From: Vulcanimicrobiota bacterium | GTDB lineage: Bacteria; Vulcanimicrobiota; Xenobia; Xenobiales; JADMJV01 | Direction: 5' to 3' | NCBI GenBank assembly: GCA_022842865.1 | Contig: JALHOV010000017.1 | Location: forward strand, 1-32,087 | Length of the DNA: 32,087 nucleotides | The notes under the pieces: model-generated | The model's database searches: none | What the model was told of the DNA's origin: nothing | What the model saw: the letters and a program-made list of their open reading frames with translations, nothing else | Made by a program: the position numbers and the translations under genes | Shown: one piece after another, positions 1-10,310 of the stretch | Position numbering within the stretch: the first letter of the stretch is position 1 | Layout of the letters: every line of letters begins with the position of its first letter

Positions 1-90
1 AGATAGCGTCTGCTCTCCCAGACCGGCTAGAGCCTGCATCCTCCAGCCTCCCGCGGTCGACCTGGGTCCCCACTGGCGCCGCACCTGCCC

Positions 91-852
91 ATGCGGGGCC
101 CCCATCACTTCCGATTGGAAGATCCCTACACGGGACTCCTGGTCGACGGCTTCGATTTCGACCCTCACTTTCTCATGAGCTATAACCCACCCTACTACGA
201 AGAACTTCTGGCGCAGGCCGGTTTACAGAAGTCGATGGACCTCTACACCTATCGCTTTGTGCAGGACAAAATCAAGCCCGACTTGATGAAAGGCCGCGCG
301 GAGCGAGCGGCCGCCAAGGGCATCGTGGTGGAACCGATGCGCAAGGGCGACTTGCGCCGTCAGGTGCAGCAAATCGCCGATGTCTTTAACGACGCGCTTT
401 CGCAAAACTGGGGTTTTGAGCCCATTGAAGGCGCTCAGTTAGATGACCTGATGTTGCTGGCTCGTTTTGTGCTCGACCCCAACTTCGTCTTTCTGGCTTA
501 CAAAGACAGCCACCCGATCGGCTGCGTCATCGTGTTGCCCAACTTGAACCCCATGCTGAGCGCCTGCAACGGATCGCTAACGCCCAAACTGATTTGGAAA
601 TATTTGACTCGCTCACGCTGGGTCGACAGCCATCGTGGCTACGCCCTGGGTGTGCGCAAAGAATTCCGCGCTGACGAAGTATCAGCAGCACTCATTCACG
701 CAGCCACTCAACACGGCATGAGTCTTCGCTGGCGCGAACTCGAAGTCAGCTGGGTATTAGAGACCAATAAGCCCATGAACGCCATGTCGACCGCTCTGGG
801 AGGCCACCGCAACAAAACTTACCGACTTCTCGAAAAACCTCCTCTGGCGTGA
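91..852 (+). CDS. GNAT-family N-acyltransferase, N-terminally incomplete (possible bacterial ceramide synthase-like)
   Basis: The 253 residues match the C-terminal two thirds of a GNAT-like family usually about 370-390 aa long: a GLLVDGFD block near residue 16, then SYNPPYYEELL and KSMDLYTYR, then an acyltransferase core ending in ALGGHRNKTYRL. Family members normally carry another 120 or so residues before the RGP motif that here follows the first Met. No Shine-Dalgarno precedes the ATG at 91, and the same frame has stops at 4-6 and 28-30, so the upstream part is either frameshifted or lost. The Caulobacter bacterial ceramide synthase belongs to the GNAT superfamily, and the next gene is a ketosphinganine reductase look-alike, so acylation of a sphingoid base is my inference. 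The stop overlaps the GTG start of the next gene, indicating translational coupling. Another N-acyl transfer role remains possible. Confidence 0.7.
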   Translation: MRGPHHFRLEDPYTGLLVDGFDFDPHFLMSYNPPYYEELLAQAGLQKSMDLYTYRFVQDKIKPDLMKGRAERAAAKGIVVEPMRKGDLRRQVQQIADVFNDALSQNWGFEPIEGAQLDDLMLLARFVLDPNFVFLAYKDSHPIGCVIVLPNLNPMLSACNGSLTPKLIWKYLTRSRWVDSHRGYALGVRKEFRADEVSAALIHAATQHGMSLRWRELEVSWVLETNKPMNAMSTALGGHRNKTYRLLEKPPLA

Positions 853-1631
853 ACCCTTACTATCGCGACAAGCTGGCCTGGGTTTTCGGAGGCAGTCAGG
901 GGATCGGACTGGCCATCGGCGAGGAACTGGTCAAGCAGGGTTGCCGGGTGCGCTTATGGGCGCGCCGGGCCGAATTACTGCTGAGCGAAGCAGCCCGTAT
1001 CCGAGCAGACTGGACGAGTCTGGACGTGTCCGACTACACCGCCACAGAAACCGCCATCCAGGCGGCCCTCCAAAGCGACGGCACGCCCCAGTTCGTTTTC
1101 AACTGCGCCGGCCTGGCACTTCCTGGCTATTTACTGGACCTCAGCGCCGTGGATCTCGCCACCATGAATGAGGTGAACTATTTGGGCACGGCCTATGTAT
1201 GCAAAGCCGTGCTCCCCGCGCTGTTCGAGCAGCGTGGCGGACATATCGTCAATGTTTCCTCGCTGGGCGGCGTGATGGGCTTGTTTGGTTACACCGGCTA
1301 CTGCGCCAGCAAATATGCGGTGATGGGCTTTTCGGAGGCCTTGCGTCGCGAAGTTTCGGGATACGGCATCCGCGTGTCGGCCCTTTGTCCGCCCAATACC
1401 CGCACGCCGGGCCTGGAGCAGGAGAACCTGCGCAAACCCCCCGAGGTGCTGGCCCAAGAAGAGAAAGTCCAGGTGCTCGAGGCCGCTCAGGTGGCCCGTT
1501 ATCTGCTGAAAGCCCTGCCCAGCAACCCGTTTACGGTCATTCCAAGCTTTGATGGGCGACTGGCTCACCTGCTATCCCGCTGGGCTCCAGGGATCCTGAA
1601 TCTCTTCCTAAAGCGGCCTCCAGCCAAATAG
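849..1631 (+). CDS. Short-chain dehydrogenase/reductase, 3-ketodihydrosphingosine reductase-like
   Basis: This is a classical SDR of 260 aa. The NAD(P)-binding glycine motif GGSQGIG is at residues 14-20, NCAG at 85-88, and the catalytic tetrad is N110, S138, Y151 and K155. The segment from NCAG to the C-terminus resembles eukaryotic 3-ketodihydrosphingosine reductases (KDSR/Tsc10), especially the CPPNTRTPGLEQEN stretch, which parallels the PPDTDTPG..EEN signature after the active site. That enzyme reduces 3-ketosphinganine to sphinganine with NADPH. Translation starts at a GTG overlapping the upstream stop (GTGA). The neighbours (acyltransferase, PAP2 synthase, CDP-alcohol transferase) support a lipid role. 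The 3' end overlaps the convergent minus-strand gene by 95 bp. The SDR assignment is certain; the sphingolipid substrate is inferred from motif resemblance and context. Confidence 0.85.
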   Translation: MNPYYRDKLAWVFGGSQGIGLAIGEELVKQGCRVRLWARRAELLLSEAARIRADWTSLDVSDYTATETAIQAALQSDGTPQFVFNCAGLALPGYLLDLSAVDLATMNEVNYLGTAYVCKAVLPALFEQRGGHIVNVSSLGGVMGLFGYTGYCASKYAVMGFSEALRREVSGYGIRVSALCPPNTRTPGLEQENLRKPPEVLAQEEKVQVLEAAQVARYLLKALPSNPFTVIPSFDGRLAHLLSRWAPGILNLFLKRPPAK

Positions 1632-2466
1632 CCGCCAGCATGCCGTAGCCGGCCCACAGCAGTTGCCGACAACGCCTTAACAGACCCACCTGAAATCCGA
1701 TCTCGGCACCCAGGCCCAACTCGGTGCAGGCCAGCATCAGCGCCTTCTCCTGAACACCAAGACCGCCGGGCACGAAGGCGAAGAGAAAAGTGCTGGCAGC
1801 CAGACAGGCCTGGATCAAGAGAACTCGCTCAGCGGTCACGGCTTGCCCCAGCAAAAACAGAATAAAGGCCACTTCCACCACCTGAAAAAGGCGGCTGACC
1901 AACTTGGGCAGCTGCCCTCGCACCAGGGTGGCTAGCGGAAACGGCCGCCACCACAGCAGTGCACCCACCAGAATAAGCATCACGCCCACGGCAAGCGCCA
2001 CTAAATGCAGCCAGGAGTGACCAGGGGAAATTCCGGAGTAGGCGCACAGGGCCGCCCCAACCAGCGTGGCCGCCAGTCCAGAAATGGCATGAAACATGCG
2101 GTAGGCCAGCACCACTTTGGCCGGCTCTTCGGTCATCGCGCGCAGATGGCGATAGCGAAAAGGCTCCCCTCCTAAGCCCGCCGAGGGAATCAATCGAGAA
2201 AAACCGTCGCTGCTCCACTCCAACAAAAAAAGACGGCCCCACTGGCGCGGTGCCGGCAGCAGTGCGGCGGTGGTGAGCACATCCCATCCCATCCAGACCA
2301 GGCCAAGCAGGCCCAACGGTATCAGCCCCCAACCTGCTTGCATTAAGGCCTGGCGCACCAGATCGAGAGAAAACTGCGCCCACAACCACATCAACAACCC
2401 CAGGCCGATGATCAGCATCAGGGTGTTGAGGGCGCGTGGCTTTTTTCTATTGACGGTCGGGGTCAC
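1537..2466 (-). CDS. LPBD/UPF0104 flippase-like membrane protein
   Basis: A 309-aa polytopic membrane protein with about eight hydrophobic segments. The pattern fits the lysylphosphatidylglycerol synthetase/AglD membrane domain (UPF0104, YbhN-like): an early R-x-x-P-x-x-G-L-G-G-E block around residues 90-102 and the diagnostic PGGLGVQEKAL loop near residue 235. Proteins of this family are thought to move lipids or lipid-linked sugars across the inner membrane. The GTG start at 2466 lies inside the end of the PAP2 gene (20-bp overlap), so the two are translationally coupled. The tail after residue 285 is encoded in the overlap with the convergent SDR gene. A role in translocating the lipid made by its neighbours is inference. 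Confidence 0.8.
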   Translation of the reverse strand: MTPTVNRKKPRALNTLMLIIGLGLLMWLWAQFSLDLVRQALMQAGWGLIPLGLLGLVWMGWDVLTTAALLPAPRQWGRLFLLEWSSDGFSRLIPSAGLGGEPFRYRHLRAMTEEPAKVVLAYRMFHAISGLAATLVGAALCAYSGISPGHSWLHLVALAVGVMLILVGALLWWRPFPLATLVRGQLPKLVSRLFQVVEVAFILFLLGQAVTAERVLLIQACLAASTFLFAFVPGGLGVQEKALMLACTELGLGAEIGFQVGLLRRCRQLLWAGYGMLAAIWLEAALGRDSGSLEPSGIAGEPVAHQSLE

Positions 2467-3352
2467 GAAAGATGACGAGACCGGCGCAAAAGGCGGCCAG
2501 CAGTGTTCCGGCCAGGACGTCGACGCTGTAATGGAAGCGACCGTAGATGGTAGCCGAAACCACTCCCGCTGCCCACAGCCCGTAGACCGGAAAAAGCTTA
2601 CGATCCCAGCGCCAGGCCATGAAGGCGGTGGCCATCGAAAGGGAAGTATGCCCGGAAGGAAAGGCGGCCGCTCCGGCTGCCCCTTTCTTCAACATGGCGT
2701 GACAAAAAGTCCAAATGGGTCCGTGTAGGCCATCGGCCAGAGGGGGAAACAGCGGCCTGGGTCCGCGCACCGGGATCAAGATGTTGACAAGATAGCAGCA
2801 GACCAGGCTGGAGACAGCGCCAGCCAGGGCCAGGCGGGCCAGATCGTCGCGCTCCCGATGGAGCAGGCGGATGATCAAAAGGGGAGCCATACCGTAATAG
2901 GTGATGTAACAGAGATGAATGCTCTCCGAGAACCAGGGCCACGGCCAGGCCTGGCTCCAGTCCAGGGCCGGAGTGATGTTCCCCCAAATCGCCCGCTCCC
3001 ATCCCTGAATCAAGGCATCCTGAGTAGGCCAGCCCAGCGCCTTGTGCACTTTGTCGATATTTCCGTAAGTCCAGAAGAAGAAGGGTGCCCAGGGAACCCA
3101 GAAAAGCCAGGCAAAACTGGCGTGGCGATCGCACCAGCTGGATAAGATGAACAGGAAGGCGGCGGCCAGCAGTTGCAGCATGGCCAGTTGGATACTGGCG
3201 CCGGAAGAGAAGGGACCGAAAAGGAGCAAACCGCTGGTCAGGACCCAGTAACCGGCCAGCCAGGCTTCTCCCCATCGGTAAGTCTTCGGTTCCACCCTTT
3301 TACAAGCCAGCTTGTTCGATTTGCCGGCGAGCATGCTGCACTCGCTGCACAC
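2447..3352 (-). CDS. PAP2-superfamily membrane enzyme, inositol-phosphorylceramide synthase-like
   Basis: A 301-aa protein with six or so membrane segments and the PAP2 signatures: RGPRP (196-200), FPSGHTS (231-237, catalytic H235) and GRFHYSVDVLAG (271-282, H274 and D278). The last motif and the ESIHLCYITYYG stretch (143-154) recall the AUR1/sphingomyelin-synthase side of the superfamily more than simple lipid phosphatases. Such enzymes transfer a phospho-head group between phosphatidylinositol and ceramide. The adjoining CDP-alcohol transferase and KDSR-like reductase fit this. The start is uncertain: besides position 3352, an in-frame ATG lies at 3334 and a GTG at 3295, just after the upstream stop. 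The gene overlaps both minus-strand neighbours. PAP2 membership is secure; synthase activity is inferred, and an ordinary lipid phosphatase remains the alternative. Confidence 0.82.
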   Translation of the reverse strand: MCSECSMLAGKSNKLACKRVEPKTYRWGEAWLAGYWVLTSGLLLFGPFSSGASIQLAMLQLLAAAFLFILSSWCDRHASFAWLFWVPWAPFFFWTYGNIDKVHKALGWPTQDALIQGWERAIWGNITPALDWSQAWPWPWFSESIHLCYITYYGMAPLLIIRLLHRERDDLARLALAGAVSSLVCCYLVNILIPVRGPRPLFPPLADGLHGPIWTFCHAMLKKGAAGAAAFPSGHTSLSMATAFMAWRWDRKLFPVYGLWAAGVVSATIYGRFHYSVDVLAGTLLAAFCAGLVIFRDPDRQ

Positions 3353-3881
3353 AACCCACTAAAGACACCAGCACGAGAATCCAGAGAAGCAGGCGGCTCC
3401 AGGGGCTGACCGGGCCCAGGGCAACGGCACTCAACAGCAAGAGCATTCGATCGGGACGGTCGCCCCAGCCAGGCCAGTCGCTATTATCCGTCGCCATCAC
3501 CAGCCCCAGCCGGGCTTTGGTGTAGCTCACCAGGCTGCTTAGAATGATGGCCAGAGAAGCGGCCAGAGGGTAACTAGGAATAAAGCCCACCAGCAAGATG
3601 CCATCCACCCAACGGTCCACAAGCGCTTCCAGGTAGTTCCCGAAGGCCGAAGCTCGATTTTGTAATCGAGCCACCTCGCCATCCAAAAAATCCATGGCGG
3701 CGGCCAACAGGGCGAGCACCAGCGCCCAGCGCCCATAACCCAGGTATAGAACCCAGGCCGCAGCAGAGCTGAGCGGGATGGCCGCCAACGTAATCCAATT
3801 AGGGTGCACCCCCAGCGCCACCAAGGGCTTGGCCAGGGCCACCCGTAGGGGCCGTGTGGGTTCTCGCAACTGACTGATCAT
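3300..3881 (-). CDS. CDP-alcohol phosphatidyltransferase
   Basis: A 193-aa membrane protein carrying the CDP-alcohol phosphotransferase motif DxxDGxxAR-x8-GxxxD-xxxD: D64, D67, G68, A71, R72, G81 and D89. The third aspartate position is Glu (E85), a conservative change at a metal/catalytic site. Length and hydrophobic layout fit the phosphatidylinositol or archaetidylinositol-phosphate synthase size class, which joins a CDP-activated lipid to an alcohol or inositol phosphate. In Bacteroides inositol-lipid loci a CDP-alcohol transferase sits beside a PAP2-type ceramide transferase, as here. The substrate cannot be read from the sequence; phosphatidylglycerophosphate or other head groups are possible. 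The ATG at 3881 has no obvious Shine-Dalgarno. The end overlaps the PAP2 gene by 53 bp. Confidence 0.85.
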   Translation of the reverse strand: MISQLREPTRPLRVALAKPLVALGVHPNWITLAAIPLSSAAAWVLYLGYGRWALVLALLAAAMDFLDGEVARLQNRASAFGNYLEALVDRWVDGILLVGFIPSYPLAASLAIILSSLVSYTKARLGLVMATDNSDWPGWGDRPDRMLLLLSAVALGPVSPWSRLLLWILVLVSLVGCVQRVQHARRQIEQAGL

Positions 3882-3925
3882 GAATGGCCGAGGGGGTTCG
3901 GGTTCTGCTCGTTCCTCCCTCCTGT

Positions 3926-4879
3926 CTAAGAAGAGCCCTTCTCCGAATGAGCATTCAGCCAGTTTTCCCGCAGGTGACGAATGGCGATGGTATTGTTGCG
4001 CGTCAGAGGATCGCCGTCGCCCCGGTTGAGCCGGCCCAGACTGCCGGCTTTCATCATTTTACGCATTTTCCAACGCTCAAAGCAGTAGCGGGGGGCGGGG
4101 AAAACCGCCTTGGGCGCGAGGCATTGAGCGCTCAACCAGACGTCGTCCACCCAGCGGCATGCGTCCGGAGCCCCGCTATAATCTTGCAGACGAGTCGAGT
4201 TATAAAAGCGAGGGAGTGTGAGAAAGCCAGAATAGCCCTGCACGATATCAATCGGGTAGGGCTCGCGGACTCGGGTACATTTGACGGGTACCGGGGCTTT
4301 CTGGCGCAAATTGTCCCACAGCGTGGTTGGCCGGTCGATCAGGTCTTCGGGCACAACCCAGCCGCTCGAACAGGTCACCTGGTCGGGGCAAAGTTGGGAA
4401 TGACTTAGCAAGGACTGAGTCAGACTGGCCGGATAAAGCATGTCGTCGTCCACCACCAGCAGGCGCTGATCGGGAGGCAGATCCAAAACCGCCGGAATGA
4501 GCTTGGTGGCCGGTCCATAATCCTGGCAAGTGACAATTTCCAGCCACTCTCGGCCGCGCAGTCCCTCGGGAACTACGTAAGCGGTTCCCTCGCGGGCGGA
4601 ATACTCGGGCAAGTGCAGACGGATTTTTTGCAGCGCCCAATTTTGGTAAAGCAAGCTTTTCAGGGTCAGTTCCAGGTAGGGCAGGCGACTGGGAATGGTG
4701 GTCAGGCAAGCGATGATTTGCGTAGGAGGTCGATGACGCCAGATGTCTTCCCAATATTCCAGGGGTTGCGTCACCAATTGAAACTGGTCCCAGCTGTCCG
4801 CGATCAAGTTCCGGCCACTCAAAAAATTGTAGCCAAGCACTCCCAAACCTGCGGTGGCCGCCAGACCGGGCAAAATCAC
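3926..4879 (-). CDS. Membrane-anchored GT-A-like glycosyltransferase (DDD motif)
   Basis: A 317-aa protein with one N-terminal hydrophobic segment (residues 1-20). It then shows a GT2-like start (ACLTTIPSRLPYLELTLKSL, 58-77), a conserved DYGPATKL (120-127), the nucleotide-sugar/metal site VVDDDMLYP (142-150) and a later WVDDVWLS that could hold the catalytic base. The fold is probably GT-A. It starts with GTG overlapping the upstream stop (GTGA) and lies 44 bp before the CDP-alcohol transferase, so it belongs to the same transcription unit. A natural guess is that it adds sugar to the inositol- or ceramide-type lipid made next door, as mannosyl or hexuronyl transferases do in other sphingolipid makers. 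Donor and acceptor are unknown. Confidence 0.75.
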   Translation of the reverse strand: MILPGLAATAGLGVLGYNFLSGRNLIADSWDQFQLVTQPLEYWEDIWRHRPPTQIIACLTTIPSRLPYLELTLKSLLYQNWALQKIRLHLPEYSAREGTAYVVPEGLRGREWLEIVTCQDYGPATKLIPAVLDLPPDQRLLVVDDDMLYPASLTQSLLSHSQLCPDQVTCSSGWVVPEDLIDRPTTLWDNLRQKAPVPVKCTRVREPYPIDIVQGYSGFLTLPRFYNSTRLQDYSGAPDACRWVDDVWLSAQCLAPKAVFPAPRYCFERWKMRKMMKAGSLGRLNRGDGDPLTRNNTIAIRHLRENWLNAHSEKGSS

Positions 4880-5632: not shown

Positions 5633-6952
5633 TCAGAGGCCCGCCTGCTTCCTTCGTTGGGCGGAGTAGTAGCTCCAGCTAAACTCGCGCCAATCGCGCG
5701 GCGGGTTGTGGACCAGAACAGCAGCCAGCAGCTCTTTCCGTCCCTCGAGCGCAGGCGCAATGTCGCTGCTCAATCCTTGCAAGTAGGCCAGGTCCACCTG
5801 GTTGCGCGCAAGATTGGTGCGGGCCACCCAGGCTTCCACGTTGGTGAGCCCGACCCCGGTCAAGGAGAGCATCCCGAGCAAGAGAAGTCGGGCCCGCAAC
5901 CACTGGGGACTGCGACCCTGGGCCAGAGCCCAGCAGCACAAGACCAGCGTGGCTACGATGCCGATCAGCGCCGCCAACACGTAGGCTCGCGTCAACGTGA
6001 GACCGAAATTTTGCACATACAAAGTCATGCGTTGGGTGGAGGAGGCTACCAATCCGAAGGTGAGCAGCAGCAGGCCCTGACAGGCCAGCAAGGCGCCCCG
6101 GCCGTTTTCGGTGCGATAAGTGGCCCCCTGCACCCAGACCACCAGAGCGACCACCAGCAGAGTGGCCACAAAAAGTTCGAAGAACCCGTGGCGGGCGTAT
6201 TCGGCCAGGGTCATGCCGGCCGGGGCCAGACCTGCGAATAGATAGCGAGCCTGACAGCCTAAGAAGGTGACAAAAAGCAGATTGGTAGCATGCAGAGCCA
6301 CGGCCCAACTGGCCGGGTCCCCACTCCCGTCGCGGTCATTCGGCTGGGGGTTGCAGTCAAAGCGGGCTTCCAGCCAGATGGCCCCCCCCAGCCAGGCCCA
6401 CAGGCTCCAACGCAGCAAGCGCCCCAACAACAACCTGGGGGAGTCGCCCAGCCATGAAGTCAGGAAACCTTGAAAAGCGGGGTCGGCCTGAACAAACAAC
6501 AGGCCGAAGAGCATGAGCAGGGGGAGAGCCATGCCCAATCCTTTGAATGTGGACGGAGAGAGACGAGGCAGTTGTGAGCTGGCCATATGCACGGCTTCGC
6601 TGGCCGAACCCCAACTGCACAGGGTCGTCGTGGTCAAGGCCTCCAAAGGCCTGGGCAACGCCACGGTGTGGTAGCAGGCCAGGACCAACGTGGTAAAACA
6701 GAGCGGCGGGGCCACCCAGTGAACCAGTTCGGCGTGATACAGGAAAGGGGAAGCGCCCAATCCTGTCGCTCCCAGCCAGAGCCAGTTGGCCCAGGCGTTG
6801 CCGGGACGTTCCAGCTTCCAGCGCAGAAATTGACTGAGCAAGAAGCCCGTTGCTACCAACAGCAACCATCCGGGACCACTTCTCACTCCCCATAGGACCG
6901 TTTCCACCAGGGTAGCCAGAATCAAGCACGAGCCCAAGAACCAACGAGACAT
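5633..6952 (-). CDS. DUF4173/DUF4153-type integral membrane protein
   Basis: About 439 aa with roughly ten to twelve membrane segments. The conserved landmarks of the DUF4173 family are visible: LLFVQADPAFQGF in the first half, CQARYLFAG followed by LAEYARHGFFELF, and TLYVQNFGLTLTRAYVLA. The molecular role of this family is not established; members are often found beside PadR-like regulators. I chose the ATG at 6950-6952, because GGGAGG lies 7 nt upstream; the two in-frame TTG codons before it are too close to that site. It is the first gene of the minus-strand run that continues into the lipid genes, and a double palindrome sits just upstream of its ribosome site. Confidence 0.8.
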   Translation of the reverse strand: MSRWFLGSCLILATLVETVLWGVRSGPGWLLLVATGFLLSQFLRWKLERPGNAWANWLWLGATGLGASPFLYHAELVHWVAPPLCFTTLVLACYHTVALPRPLEALTTTTLCSWGSASEAVHMASSQLPRLSPSTFKGLGMALPLLMLFGLLFVQADPAFQGFLTSWLGDSPRLLLGRLLRWSLWAWLGGAIWLEARFDCNPQPNDRDGSGDPASWAVALHATNLLFVTFLGCQARYLFAGLAPAGMTLAEYARHGFFELFVATLLVVALVVWVQGATYRTENGRGALLACQGLLLLTFGLVASSTQRMTLYVQNFGLTLTRAYVLAALIGIVATLVLCCWALAQGRSPQWLRARLLLLGMLSLTGVGLTNVEAWVARTNLARNQVDLAYLQGLSSDIAPALEGRKELLAAVLVHNPPRDWREFSWSYYSAQRRKQAGL

Positions 6953-7423: not shown

Positions 7424-7708
7424 ATGAAAACCATGCTCATTTCCGTATTTGCCTTAACTGGACTGGCTTTCGCTGAGCCCGCTCCGCAACGTCAGCCAGC
7501 CCCCCAGCAGACCCAGGCCGCGACGGCTGCCGCTTCCGATTGCTGCCAGCCAAAGGCCGACTGCTGCAAGCCGGGGGCGGACTGCTGCCCAACAGAGAAG
7601 GCAGACGCCAAGGCAGACTGCTGCAAAGAGAAAGCGGTCGCCAAGGCGGACAGTTGCTGCGCTCCCGGAGCCGCTTGCTGCGTGCCCGGGGCAGCCTGCT
7701 GTGAGTAG
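7424..7708 (+). CDS. Exported protein with seven evenly spaced Cys-Cys pairs
   Basis: A 94-aa protein with a clear Sec leader (MKTMLISVFALTGLAFA) and a Gln/Pro/Ala-rich spacer. A C-terminal half contains seven CC pairs at residues 40, 47, 54, 66, 78, 85 and 92. The spacings are 7, 7, 12, 12, 7, 7, a symmetric pattern; the repeat unit is roughly KADCCKPG. An excellent ribosome site (AGGAGGA, 7411-7417) precedes the ATG, and an intrinsic terminator follows. Regular vicinal cysteines in an exported protein suggest metal binding or disulfide cross-linking, but no known metallothionein or copper-chaperone motif is present. It is the partner of the preceding Cys-rich gene. Confidence 0.8.
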   Translation: MKTMLISVFALTGLAFAEPAPQRQPAPQQTQAATAAASDCCQPKADCCKPGADCCPTEKADAKADCCKEKAVAKADSCCAPGAACCVPGAACCE

Positions 7709-8667: not shown

Positions 8668-9636
8668 ATGTATCAAGCAACCATAACCACTCTGCAACTG
8701 AACCCCAACCCCGGCGCGGGTTCTTCCCCCTCGATCGGGATGCCGATGCTCGATTCTTCGGTTTCGCAGCGCTGTATGGGCTTGAACAATACGGGCGGGC
8801 TGCAGCCAATGCCCGGAGCAGGCATCCCCGGTTTCGCTAACACCGGCTACAACGTCGACCCCTCGATGCTGCTAACTCAGCAGATGATGACGATGGAGCT
8901 GATGTTAGACATGATGGCCTTGATGCTCGGCGCTGGCGGCGCTATGCCCAACGCGATGGGGATGAATCCCAATGCCTCGGGTGGCCTGGGCGCTGCAAGT
9001 GGCGTATCCGGTGGCGGTGGCTCTGCGAGCGGCAGCGGCGGTGCCTCCAGCGCAGGCGGAACCCAGGGCGCGCAGGCCTTTGATGCAGCCAAGCCCATTA
9101 CCACCAACATCGACCAAATCGTCAATGCCCTCGACCCGGGCTACCGCGAATACGCTAAAAAGAGCTTTCCCCTGATCCTGGGAGAGTGTCAGAAACAAGG
9201 CGTTACCGACAAGCAACAGATCGCCTACATTCTGGCCACGACCGTGCACGAGTCGGGCGCCGGTAAGTATATGGAAGAAATCGCCTCGGGCTCGGCCTAC
9301 GAAGGCCGCAAAGACCTGGGAAACAACCAGTCGGGCGACGGCGTGCGCTACAAAGGCCGCGGTTTCGTGCAAATCACCGGTCGCAATAACTACACCAACT
9401 GGTCCAAGAAGTTGGGCATGGACCTGGTGGGCAACCCCGAGCAGGCCGAGCGGCCCGAAATCGCCGCGCGTATCCTGGTCCAGGGCATGAAAGAAGGCTC
9501 CTTCACCGGCAAGAAGCTGTCTGACTACATTGGCGGCGGCAAGCAAGACTTCGAAGGCGCCCGGCGCATCGTCAACGGCACCGACAAAGCCGGCACCTTT
9601 GCCGGCACCGCCCGCAAGATTTTGGCCGTATTGTAG
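8668..9636 (+). CDS. GH19 (chitinase/endolysin)-type lytic enzyme without a signal peptide
   Basis: A 322-aa protein. Residues 145-322 form a glycoside hydrolase family 19-like domain: AYILATTVHESGAGKY with the probable catalytic E195, YEGRKDLGN (211-219), GDGVRYKGRGFVQITGRNNY (223-242) and a C-terminal DFEGARRIVNGTDKAGTFA. Related domains occur in phage endolysins and bacterial peptidoglycan or chitin hydrolases. The first 145 residues are unusual: no leader, Pro/Gly/Ser-rich, a Met-rich amphipathic patch (MLLTQQMMTMELMLDMMALML, 67-87, broken by few polar residues) and a Gly/Ser linker. GGAGGTG at 8657-8663 fixes the start. Export would need a holin, a dedicated secretion system or lysis. 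No phage structural genes are nearby. Confidence 0.8.
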   Translation: MYQATITTLQLNPNPGAGSSPSIGMPMLDSSVSQRCMGLNNTGGLQPMPGAGIPGFANTGYNVDPSMLLTQQMMTMELMLDMMALMLGAGGAMPNAMGMNPNASGGLGAASGVSGGGGSASGSGGASSAGGTQGAQAFDAAKPITTNIDQIVNALDPGYREYAKKSFPLILGECQKQGVTDKQQIAYILATTVHESGAGKYMEEIASGSAYEGRKDLGNNQSGDGVRYKGRGFVQITGRNNYTNWSKKLGMDLVGNPEQAERPEIAARILVQGMKEGSFTGKKLSDYIGGGKQDFEGARRIVNGTDKAGTFAGTARKILAVL

Positions 9637-9683: not shown

Positions 9684-10184
9684 TTGGAACTGCCGGGTAT
9701 GCAGAAATTGACTCACGCCCTCGTATGCCTGATTACCGCAACTGCCCTGGCCACCCCGCTGAAGGTGACGGATGCCCAAAGGCTCGGCGACCTGCGCCTC
9801 GGCTTGGAATCGGCCCAGTTAACGCCTCTGCTGGGCAAGCCCAGCAAAGAGGGCAAACCCTTGGAAGAAGGGGCCACCGGCCTGACCGTCAAGGACCAGA
9901 CCTTCAAAAAACAGGGCGTGGTGATTACTCTCTCCCGGGAAAAGAAAGCCCGAGTCTGGCGAGTGGAGCGTTTTGTGGTTACCGCTCCCTGCCCCTGGAA
10001 AACCCCGCAAGGCATCGGCATCGGTTCCAGCGACCAGCAAGTGCGCAAGGCCTACAGCCAGTTGCTGGACAGCGAGAGCCAGTCAGCCACACAACTGGTG
10101 GTCGGCAGCATCTATGATGGTGTCATTTTCCACATCAAAAACGGCAAAGTGGAATCGATCTTCGTAGGCGCCGCCGCTGAGTAG
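9684..10184 (+). CDS. Small exported protein of unknown function
   Basis: 166 aa with an N-terminal leader (HALVCLITATALATP) and a mature part of about 140 residues. It contains two GLxLG/GIGIGSS-type turns, LGDLRLGLESAQLTPLLGKP and GIGIGSSDQQVRKAYSQ, a layout common in small periplasmic proteins with two copies of a G-x-G-x-S-x-x-x-V motif. GGAGG (9673-9677) is correctly spaced for the TTG at 9684, while the ATG at 9699 lies too far from it; either start retains the leader. The gene follows the GH19-type gene by 47 bp in the same direction. The stop codon abuts the G-rich repeat array. Confidence 0.65.
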   Translation: MELPGMQKLTHALVCLITATALATPLKVTDAQRLGDLRLGLESAQLTPLLGKPSKEGKPLEEGATGLTVKDQTFKKQGVVITLSREKKARVWRVERFVVTAPCPWKTPQGIGIGSSDQQVRKAYSQLLDSESQSATQLVVGSIYDGVIFHIKNGKVESIFVGAAAE

Positions 10185-10310
10185 TGGGGGTGCAAGGGGG
10201 AGGCGCGTTAGCCCCCCCTTGATCCCTGAAGTGGGGGTGCAAGGGGGAGGCGCGTTAGCCCCCCTTGATCCTGAAGTGGGGGTGCAAGGGGGAGGCGCGT
10301 TAGCCCCCCT
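10184..10310. repeat. Three-copy G/C-rich tandem repeat between convergent genes
   Basis: Copies begin at 10184, 10231 and 10276 with GTGGGGGTGCAAGGGGGAGG and continue CGCGTTAGCCCCCC TTGATC(C)CTGAA; lengths are 47, 45 and a truncated 35 bp. Each copy can fold (AAGGGGG with CCCCCTT around an 11-base loop) and carries two G5 runs, so G-quadruplexes are also possible. The array starts on the last base of one stop codon and ends past the stop of the facing gene (TTA at 10300-10302 supplies its TAA). It probably acts as a bidirectional transcript end. Confidence 0.85.

Follow-up and report, generated by a model that had tools for sequence, protein, structure and literature searches.

Does the left end of contig JALHOV010000017.1, from a Vulcanimicrobiota bacterium, hold the genes for an inositol-containing sphingolipid? 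The window analyzed here is this whole contig (32,087 nucleotides; contig C17 of genome G000), which belongs to a draft genome of 8.0 Mb that is 82% complete. Matches to named records (JAHBVR010000003, JAFEBA010000057, JAFKGI010000004, and JADMJV010000117) place the genus in Candidatus Eremiobacterota, a phylum that to our knowledge is not known to make sphingolipids; a limited literature search found no work linking Eremiobacterota to sphingolipid synthesis. A sequence-only reading had assigned six genes at positions 91–4879 to the making, head-grouping, translocation, and glycosylation of inositol phosphoceramide (IPC). All six open reading frames were found where it had placed them, while its gene list overlooked a polyketide synthase (PKS)–α-oxoamine synthase (AONS) fusion and an acyl carrier protein (ACP), as well as the truncation of the first gene.

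The complete block consists of eight genes, encoding the PKS–AONS fusion, the ACP, a GNAT-superfamily acyltransferase, a short-chain dehydrogenase/reductase (SDR), a flippase-like protein, a PAP2 protein, a CDP-alcohol transferase, and a glycosyltransferase-like protein, and this order is common to four same-genus genomes. The six block genes present in the window recur in the same order, with 55–93% protein identity, in the four other genomes of the genus, the only ones matched when genome contigs were scanned with a GNAT-alignment profile. Because the order is kept in all four, the block exceeds chance; its boundary is set at the glycosyltransferase gene, since the genes beyond it in one of them, G004, are not those found in the other genomes. 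Each strand carries its own transcription unit, the two running toward each other and meeting at their 3′ ends, and neighboring genes overlap: GNAT with SDR (GTGA, the GTG start of the SDR lying on the GNAT stop), CDP-alcohol transferase with PAP2, PAP2 with flippase, and, tail to tail over 95 bp, SDR with flippase. What was read directly from the sequences is which genes are present, the conservation of their order, their homologies, and their active-site residues. Considered together, they suggest that the block probably makes an inositol-phosphate sphingolipid: a pathway to the sphingolipid backbone is very likely, an inositol head group is likely, and the full picture, including IPC transfer and glycosylation, has about an even chance of being correct.

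Candidate genes for the sphingoid base and ceramide

Upstream of the GNAT gene, and divergent from it, four same-genus genomes encode an ACP of 83 residues (PF00550) and a fusion of 1,291 or 1,292 residues, whose domains are, in order, a ketosynthase (KS), a carrier (ACP), a dehydratase (DH; PS-DH), and AONS. In G004 the fusion is an open frame of 1,375 residues whose start is not defined, and the ACP is not listed as a separate frame. In G003, this divergent pair lies ∼77 bp from the GNAT. In the window genome, the fusion lies on another contig, C460. One end of C460 aligns with the GNAT at codon 7, which leaves a gap of ∼270 bp to the window; the two contigs are adjacent by synteny, not by an assembled join. 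The sequence-only reading had proposed looking left of the window for a serine palmitoyltransferase (SPT). An SPT-type AONS lies at that place in the four relatives. In the window genome, the C460 fusion alone matches the alpha-oxoamine synthase model TIGR01825 over its full length, the one further match being a 21-bit fragment. The catalytic residues of KS, ACP, DH (H661 and D814), and AONS (the catalytic histidine H1105 and the pyridoxal-phosphate lysine K1137) are present in five genus genomes, as are the AONS motifs.

Phylogenetic analysis placed the AONS in a clade with SgaB-like enzymes encoded beside PKS genes and with two other PKS–AONS fusions (support 100/99). This clade was sister to the eukaryotic SPT2/LCB2 (97/91), KBL and HemA stood apart, and the canonical bacterial SPTs of Sphingomonas and Sphingobacterium formed a separate clade; two rows (Methylobacterium and L069), badly placed on long branches and probably misread frames, were ignored. 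The AONS shares 45–47% identity with SgaB-like proteins whose genes neighbor a PKS, and against the canonical SPT models NF047599, NF047600, and NF047603, it scores 274, 287, and 212 bits, below the cut-offs of 500, 640, and 670. The top model was bioF (332 bits; cut-off 426). Identity as BioF or KBL was nevertheless rejected on the grouping with SgaB and SPT2, apart from KBL and HemA, in a tree that contained no confirmed biotin BioF. The Pseudomonas SgaB tested biochemically is an SPT with an almost exclusive preference for serine (PMC12134224). By its position in the tree, the block AONS is a putative SPT of the SgaB, PKS-linked type and not of the canonical bacterial type, and it is predicted to use serine. 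We know of no PKS fused to an SPT among the bacterial sphingolipid pathways described so far.

In G006, a genome of the same order, separate genes for AONS, an acyltransferase (AT), a FabA-like protein, and KS stand in a row (L091, contig C64, 596–4601), which suggests the same partnership in unfused form; the AONS of that row shows only 34% identity. The two additional fusions of the AONS clade are carried by a Streptomyces anthocyanicus plasmid (L097, 7001–11824) and by Planktothrix plasmid p3 (L096, 2605–10203) and are annotated simply as aminotransferase or polyketide synthase.

The GNAT gene (57–852, plus strand) is present in the window as its 3′ part, with an open reading frame from 91 and the first ∼98 codons off the contig end. 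Homology to the relatives begins at base 57, bases 1–56 have no counterpart in them, and a one-base gap occurs around base 73. Since the GNATs of the genus relatives, to which the window copy is 82–92% identical, have 362 residues at full length, the frame at 91 is a fragment, short by about 98–109 codons (98 counted to the start of homology), and a gene start at 91 was rejected. The Pfam match is weak (14.5 bits truncated, 20.3 bits full length). Compared with GNATs adjoining SPT genes in other phyla, the genus proteins align over their full length at 25–31% identity (E 1e-24 to 1e-43); homologs adjoin SPT, epimerase, or LptFG genes in Roseomonas, Sphingomonas, Streptomyces, and Rubrobacter, and the protein is also homologous to YghO. 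This homology to GNATs encoded beside SPT genes backs the earlier proposal of a ceramide-synthase candidate. The comparison was made with these SPT-adjoining proteins and not with the sequence of Caulobacter bCerS, which we take to be a GNAT-superfamily protein. The Caulobacter enzyme acylates the sphingoid base (PMC11087976), and the block GNAT is a putative bCerS/YghO-like ceramide synthase that would N-acylate the long-chain base. A GNAT homolog in G015, related at the class level, lies at 6212–7273 of L090 (contig C30), near a PAP2 gene truncated where the contig stops and an ABC ATPase that is 51% identical to the one adjoining the G005 cluster described below.

The SDR (849–1631, plus strand; PF00106, 140 bits) is a putative 3-ketosphinganine reductase of the KDSR/SgaC-like kind. 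The catalytic YxxxK (YCASK) and the GxxxGxG motif (GGSQGIG) are both present, and its closest counterparts are SDRs encoded next to SgaB-like genes (126 and 119 bits), against at most 88.6 bits for any other readable SDR in the genome. Among the 20 readable SDRs of the genome, the block SDR alone carries the motif PPNTRTP (PP[DN]TxTP), which resembles one in eukaryotic KDSR. The KDSR sequence features used for comparison are as listed in PMC9278070. The earlier description of a KDSR-like reductase stands as regards closeness to the SgaC-like reductases, while the cut-off of the KDSR equivalog NF049977 was missed (103 bits; cut-off 400). Plasmid searches with the SDR and with the CDP-alcohol transferase gave no matches at the limits used.

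Candidate head-group and membrane genes

The CDP-alcohol phosphotransferase (3300–3881, minus strand; CDP-OH_P_transf, 54 bits), whose gene overlaps the PAP2 gene by 53 bp, is of the phosphatidylinositol phosphate (PIP) synthase/archaetidylinositol-phosphate synthase type. It scores 103 bits against NF040950 and 85 bits against NF045883 (cut-off 170), both below cut-off, and aligns to PIP synthase structures (PDB 6h53, E 2.7e-12). The residues contacting inositol phosphate in the Mycobacterium tuberculosis PIP synthase (MtPIPS), defined in PMC4634129 and PMC6506517, are all kept, S132, Y133, K135, R137, R155, and R195 corresponding to S119, Y120, K122, R124, R145, and R180, and the presence of these acceptor residues bears out the CDP-alcohol transferase named in the sequence-only reading. 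That reading had also asked for an inositol-3-phosphate synthase, and one is encoded in every genus genome. A second CDP-alcohol transferase occurs in the genus genomes (L127, L128, L134, L135, and L136), with an SYTKPR/DHADR acceptor motif and the same signature glutamate as the block protein (below).

Further evidence comes from another genus of the family. Within 6.7 kb, genome G005 encodes an AONS, a PIP synthase (PIPS)-like protein with 49% identity, an inositol-3-phosphate synthase, a MacB/FtsX-type permease, and a GNAT, with an ABC ATPase adjoining. Because SPT, PIPS, inositol synthase, and GNAT are clustered there, the inositol head group is independently supported, and we regard this cluster, which has no PKS, as the strongest such support.

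The PAP2_3-type membrane protein (2447–3352, minus strand; PF14378, 55.5 bits; gathering score 27) is a putative IPC synthase or, alternatively, a PIP phosphatase. It has the His/His/Asp site (H235, H274, and D278) and lacks the K-x6-RP lysine of PAP2 phosphatases; each genus genome encodes just this one full-length PAP2_3 protein. Its relative in G005 has a phosphatidylinositol (PI)-dihydroceramide synthase as its best NCBIfam model and scores 28.6 bits on the BT_1522 model NF052609 (cut-off 480). A plasmid search with the PAP2 protein gave only weak matches, the best of them in Bacteroidaceae beside an epimerase-like gene and without a match to the BT_1522 model.

The remaining two genes encode a putative lipid flippase, an LPG_synthase_TM/HpnL-like membrane protein (1537–2466, minus strand; PF03706, 46.6 bits; TIGR03476 HpnL, 64 bits, cut-off 196), and a putative GT-A-like glycosyltransferase, the last gene of the block (3926–4879, minus strand), which carries TTIPSR and VDDDMLYP motifs and is 75–92% conserved in the genus. 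The families named earlier for the first five genes were recovered in Pfam, weakly for the GNAT and also for the SDR, flippase-like, PAP2_3, and CDP-OH_P_transf proteins, while Pfam and NCBIfam searches with the sixth, the glycosyltransferase-like protein, gave no match; among more remote homologs of this protein is one of glycosyltransferase family 2 (E 5e-4). The roles of the IPC-synthase-like PAP2 protein, the flippase, and the glycosyltransferase are putative and follow from family resemblance only.

Proposed pathway and alternatives

We infer every substrate, the order of the steps, and the product. The KS–ACP–DH–AONS fusion, together with the free ACP and a trans-acting AT and ketoreductase (KR), would lengthen an acyl chain by one unit or more, and the AONS domain would condense the extended chain with serine to a 3-keto long-chain base. 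The SDR would then reduce the 3-keto group and the GNAT would N-acylate the base to ceramide. From CDP-diacylglycerol and inositol phosphate, the latter coming from the inositol-3-phosphate synthase encoded in the genome, the CDP-alcohol transferase would make PIP; its terminal phosphate would be removed by the PAP2 protein or another enzyme, after which the PAP2 protein would move phosphoinositol onto ceramide. The HpnL-like protein may translocate the product and the glycosyltransferase decorate it. The PAP2 transfer and the final flipping and glycosylation are the weakest parts of the proposal. It is conceivable, though rather unlikely, that the fusion performs a single extension and that, after reduction by a trans-acting reductase, its DH dehydrates the chain before the AONS releases it with serine. 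The conservation of H661 and D814, the lack of an enoylreductase (ER) in the fusion, and the AONS, AT, FabA-like, and KS row of G006 favor such a dehydration. If it occurs, the base would already have its 4,5 double bond (or a 5-hydroxyl) when made, without any desaturase, and the product would be an inositol phosphoceramide of the sphingosine type.

Several observations weigh against the proposed pathway. Across the block proteins, the nearest NCBIfam equivalogs all fall below cut-off, and the domain search found no AT, KR, or ER in the fusion. The CDP-alcohol transferase matches the signature DxxDGxxAR...GxxxDxxxD at seven of eight positions, the third Asp being Glu (E85) in all six sequences, and for this reason it may have a changed donor. 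The PAP2 protein reaches 14.9 bits on NF052609, so far below the cut-off that the sequence-only assignment as IPC synthase did not find support there and can only be putative; its G005 relative is not on the contig of the G005 cluster. In a search that covered the eight block genes, none was found to encode a PIP phosphatase of the PgpA-like kind. The AlphaFold2 models had a predicted local distance difference test score of 39 for the PAP2 protein and 30 for the glycosyltransferase-like protein, too low for use, since the alignments contained just four or five close sequences. Finally, G015 has a GNAT homolog (45% identical), a PIPS relative, and an inositol-3-phosphate synthase, and no AONS was detected in its genome; the GNAT family is therefore not strictly tied to SPT, although in the genus and in G005 it is accompanied by an SPT-type enzyme. 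Neither an absence of SPT from the genome nor a firm grouping of the SDR and PAP2 proteins with nonsphingolipid families, the two results named beforehand as contrary, was found. On balance, the inositol-sphingolipid interpretation is partly supported, by the SPT, inositol synthase, GNAT, SDR, and PIPS, the roles given to PAP2, the flippase-like protein, and the glycosyltransferase being putative.

One possibility, which we consider improbable but the most serious of the alternatives, is that the block makes a ceramide backbone and no inositol phosphoceramide, the CDP-alcohol transferase and PAP2 protein producing ordinary phosphatidylinositol for other use or the head group being a different polar alcohol. 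As the locus has no separate PIP phosphatase, the PAP2 protein could be that enzyme, and its match to the IPC-synthase model is weak; the PIPS relatives of G015 and G017 sit away from sphingolipid genes, and the glutamate variant, found in the genus and in G005, also occurs in some paralogs of the same genomes. In contrast, the PAP2 and PIPS-like genes overlap and are part of the sphingolipid block in each of the five genomes of the genus, and the PAP2 protein, without the phosphatase lysine, matches PAP2_3 over its full length and has the G005 relative noted above. A secreted long-chain amino-alcohol natural product, as in prodiginine- or sphingofungin-type pathways, with the membrane genes exporting or modifying it and no membrane sphingolipid, would suit the PKS architecture, and the Planktothrix and S. 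anthocyanicus plasmid fusions do lie among other kinds of genes. The sharing of one block by a bCerS-type GNAT, a KDSR-like SDR, and a PIPS-type transferase, and the PKS-free grouping in G005, make this quite improbable. That the genes are chance neighbors from unrelated pathways might be argued from the two converging units and the draft state of the genomes, but the idea is already contradicted and has hardly any probability left: the order is kept in five genomes while the flanks change in G004, genes overlap, G005 independently clusters four of the functions, and the chance of a given single gene lying within 5 kb of another is ∼0.0012 in an 8.3-Mb genome.

Outside the block, the window contains a GC-rich 45-bp unit in tandem (10183–10310; 2.8 copies, 97% match) and a gene for a 94-residue protein with repeated CC pairs (7424–7708; SDCCQPKADCC...), encoded by short tandem repeats, without a Pfam match, and 58–65% identical in three same-genus genomes. 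A chitinase class I match at 8668–9636 (PF00182) is weak, at 24.9 bits slightly under the cut-off, and is kept in three same-genus genomes. On another contig of the window genome, repeat-like proline-rich reading frames occupy 2504–3889 of L094.

Known systems and wider meaning

The proposed inositol-sphingolipid block resembles known systems in part. Like SgaABC of Pseudomonas fluorescens MYb115, it combines a PKS with an SgaB-type AONS, here predicted to use serine, and has a KDSR-like SDR nearby; the SgaA-like PKS, however, is a complete iterative synthase comprising AT, DH, ER, KR, and ACP, and its AONS is separate, whereas the block AONS is fused to a minimal KS–ACP–DH. The block adds a ceramide-synthase-type GNAT and inositol-lipid genes, while the MYb115 products are sphinganines and phosphoglycerol sphingolipids (PMC12134224). 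With Bacteroides thetaiotaomicron BT_1522–1526 (PMC9246714 and PMC8791184), it shares a PIP synthase, a PAP2-type IPC synthase candidate, and a genomic inositol-phosphate synthase. There, the SPT (BT_0870) is encoded elsewhere, and the cluster includes a PgpA-like phosphatase, BT_1525, that acts on PIP (PMC9246714); here, SPT, KDSR-like, and GNAT genes lie inside the block, the phosphatase is not among its genes, and the PAP2 protein scores far below the cut-off of the BT_1522 model. The Caulobacter Spt–bCerS–CerR pathway (PMC11087976) likewise has a GNAT-superfamily ceramide synthase candidate beside an SPT-type enzyme, but the block SPT is not of the canonical clade, its reduction step would use an SDR and not a CerR-type protein, and LptFG genes are not in the block. 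Compared with the PIP synthases of M. tuberculosis and Renibacterium (PMC4634129 and PMC6506517), the block protein is of the same family and keeps all inositol-phosphate contacts, but has Glu for the third signature Asp and lies below the family-model cut-off.

If the proposed pathway is correct, inositol sphingolipids would be extended to Candidatus Eremiobacterota, a little-studied group of wastewater bacteria. These lipids are a hallmark of eukaryotes, and the bacteria in which they are known are mainly Bacteroidota. One locus would then join PKS-type sphingoid-base synthesis and GNAT-type ceramide synthesis, so far described separately, and the minimal PKS–SPT fusion, whose AONS belongs to the type closest to eukaryotic SPT2 in the tree, would allow direct assays of chain building and serine condensation on one polypeptide.

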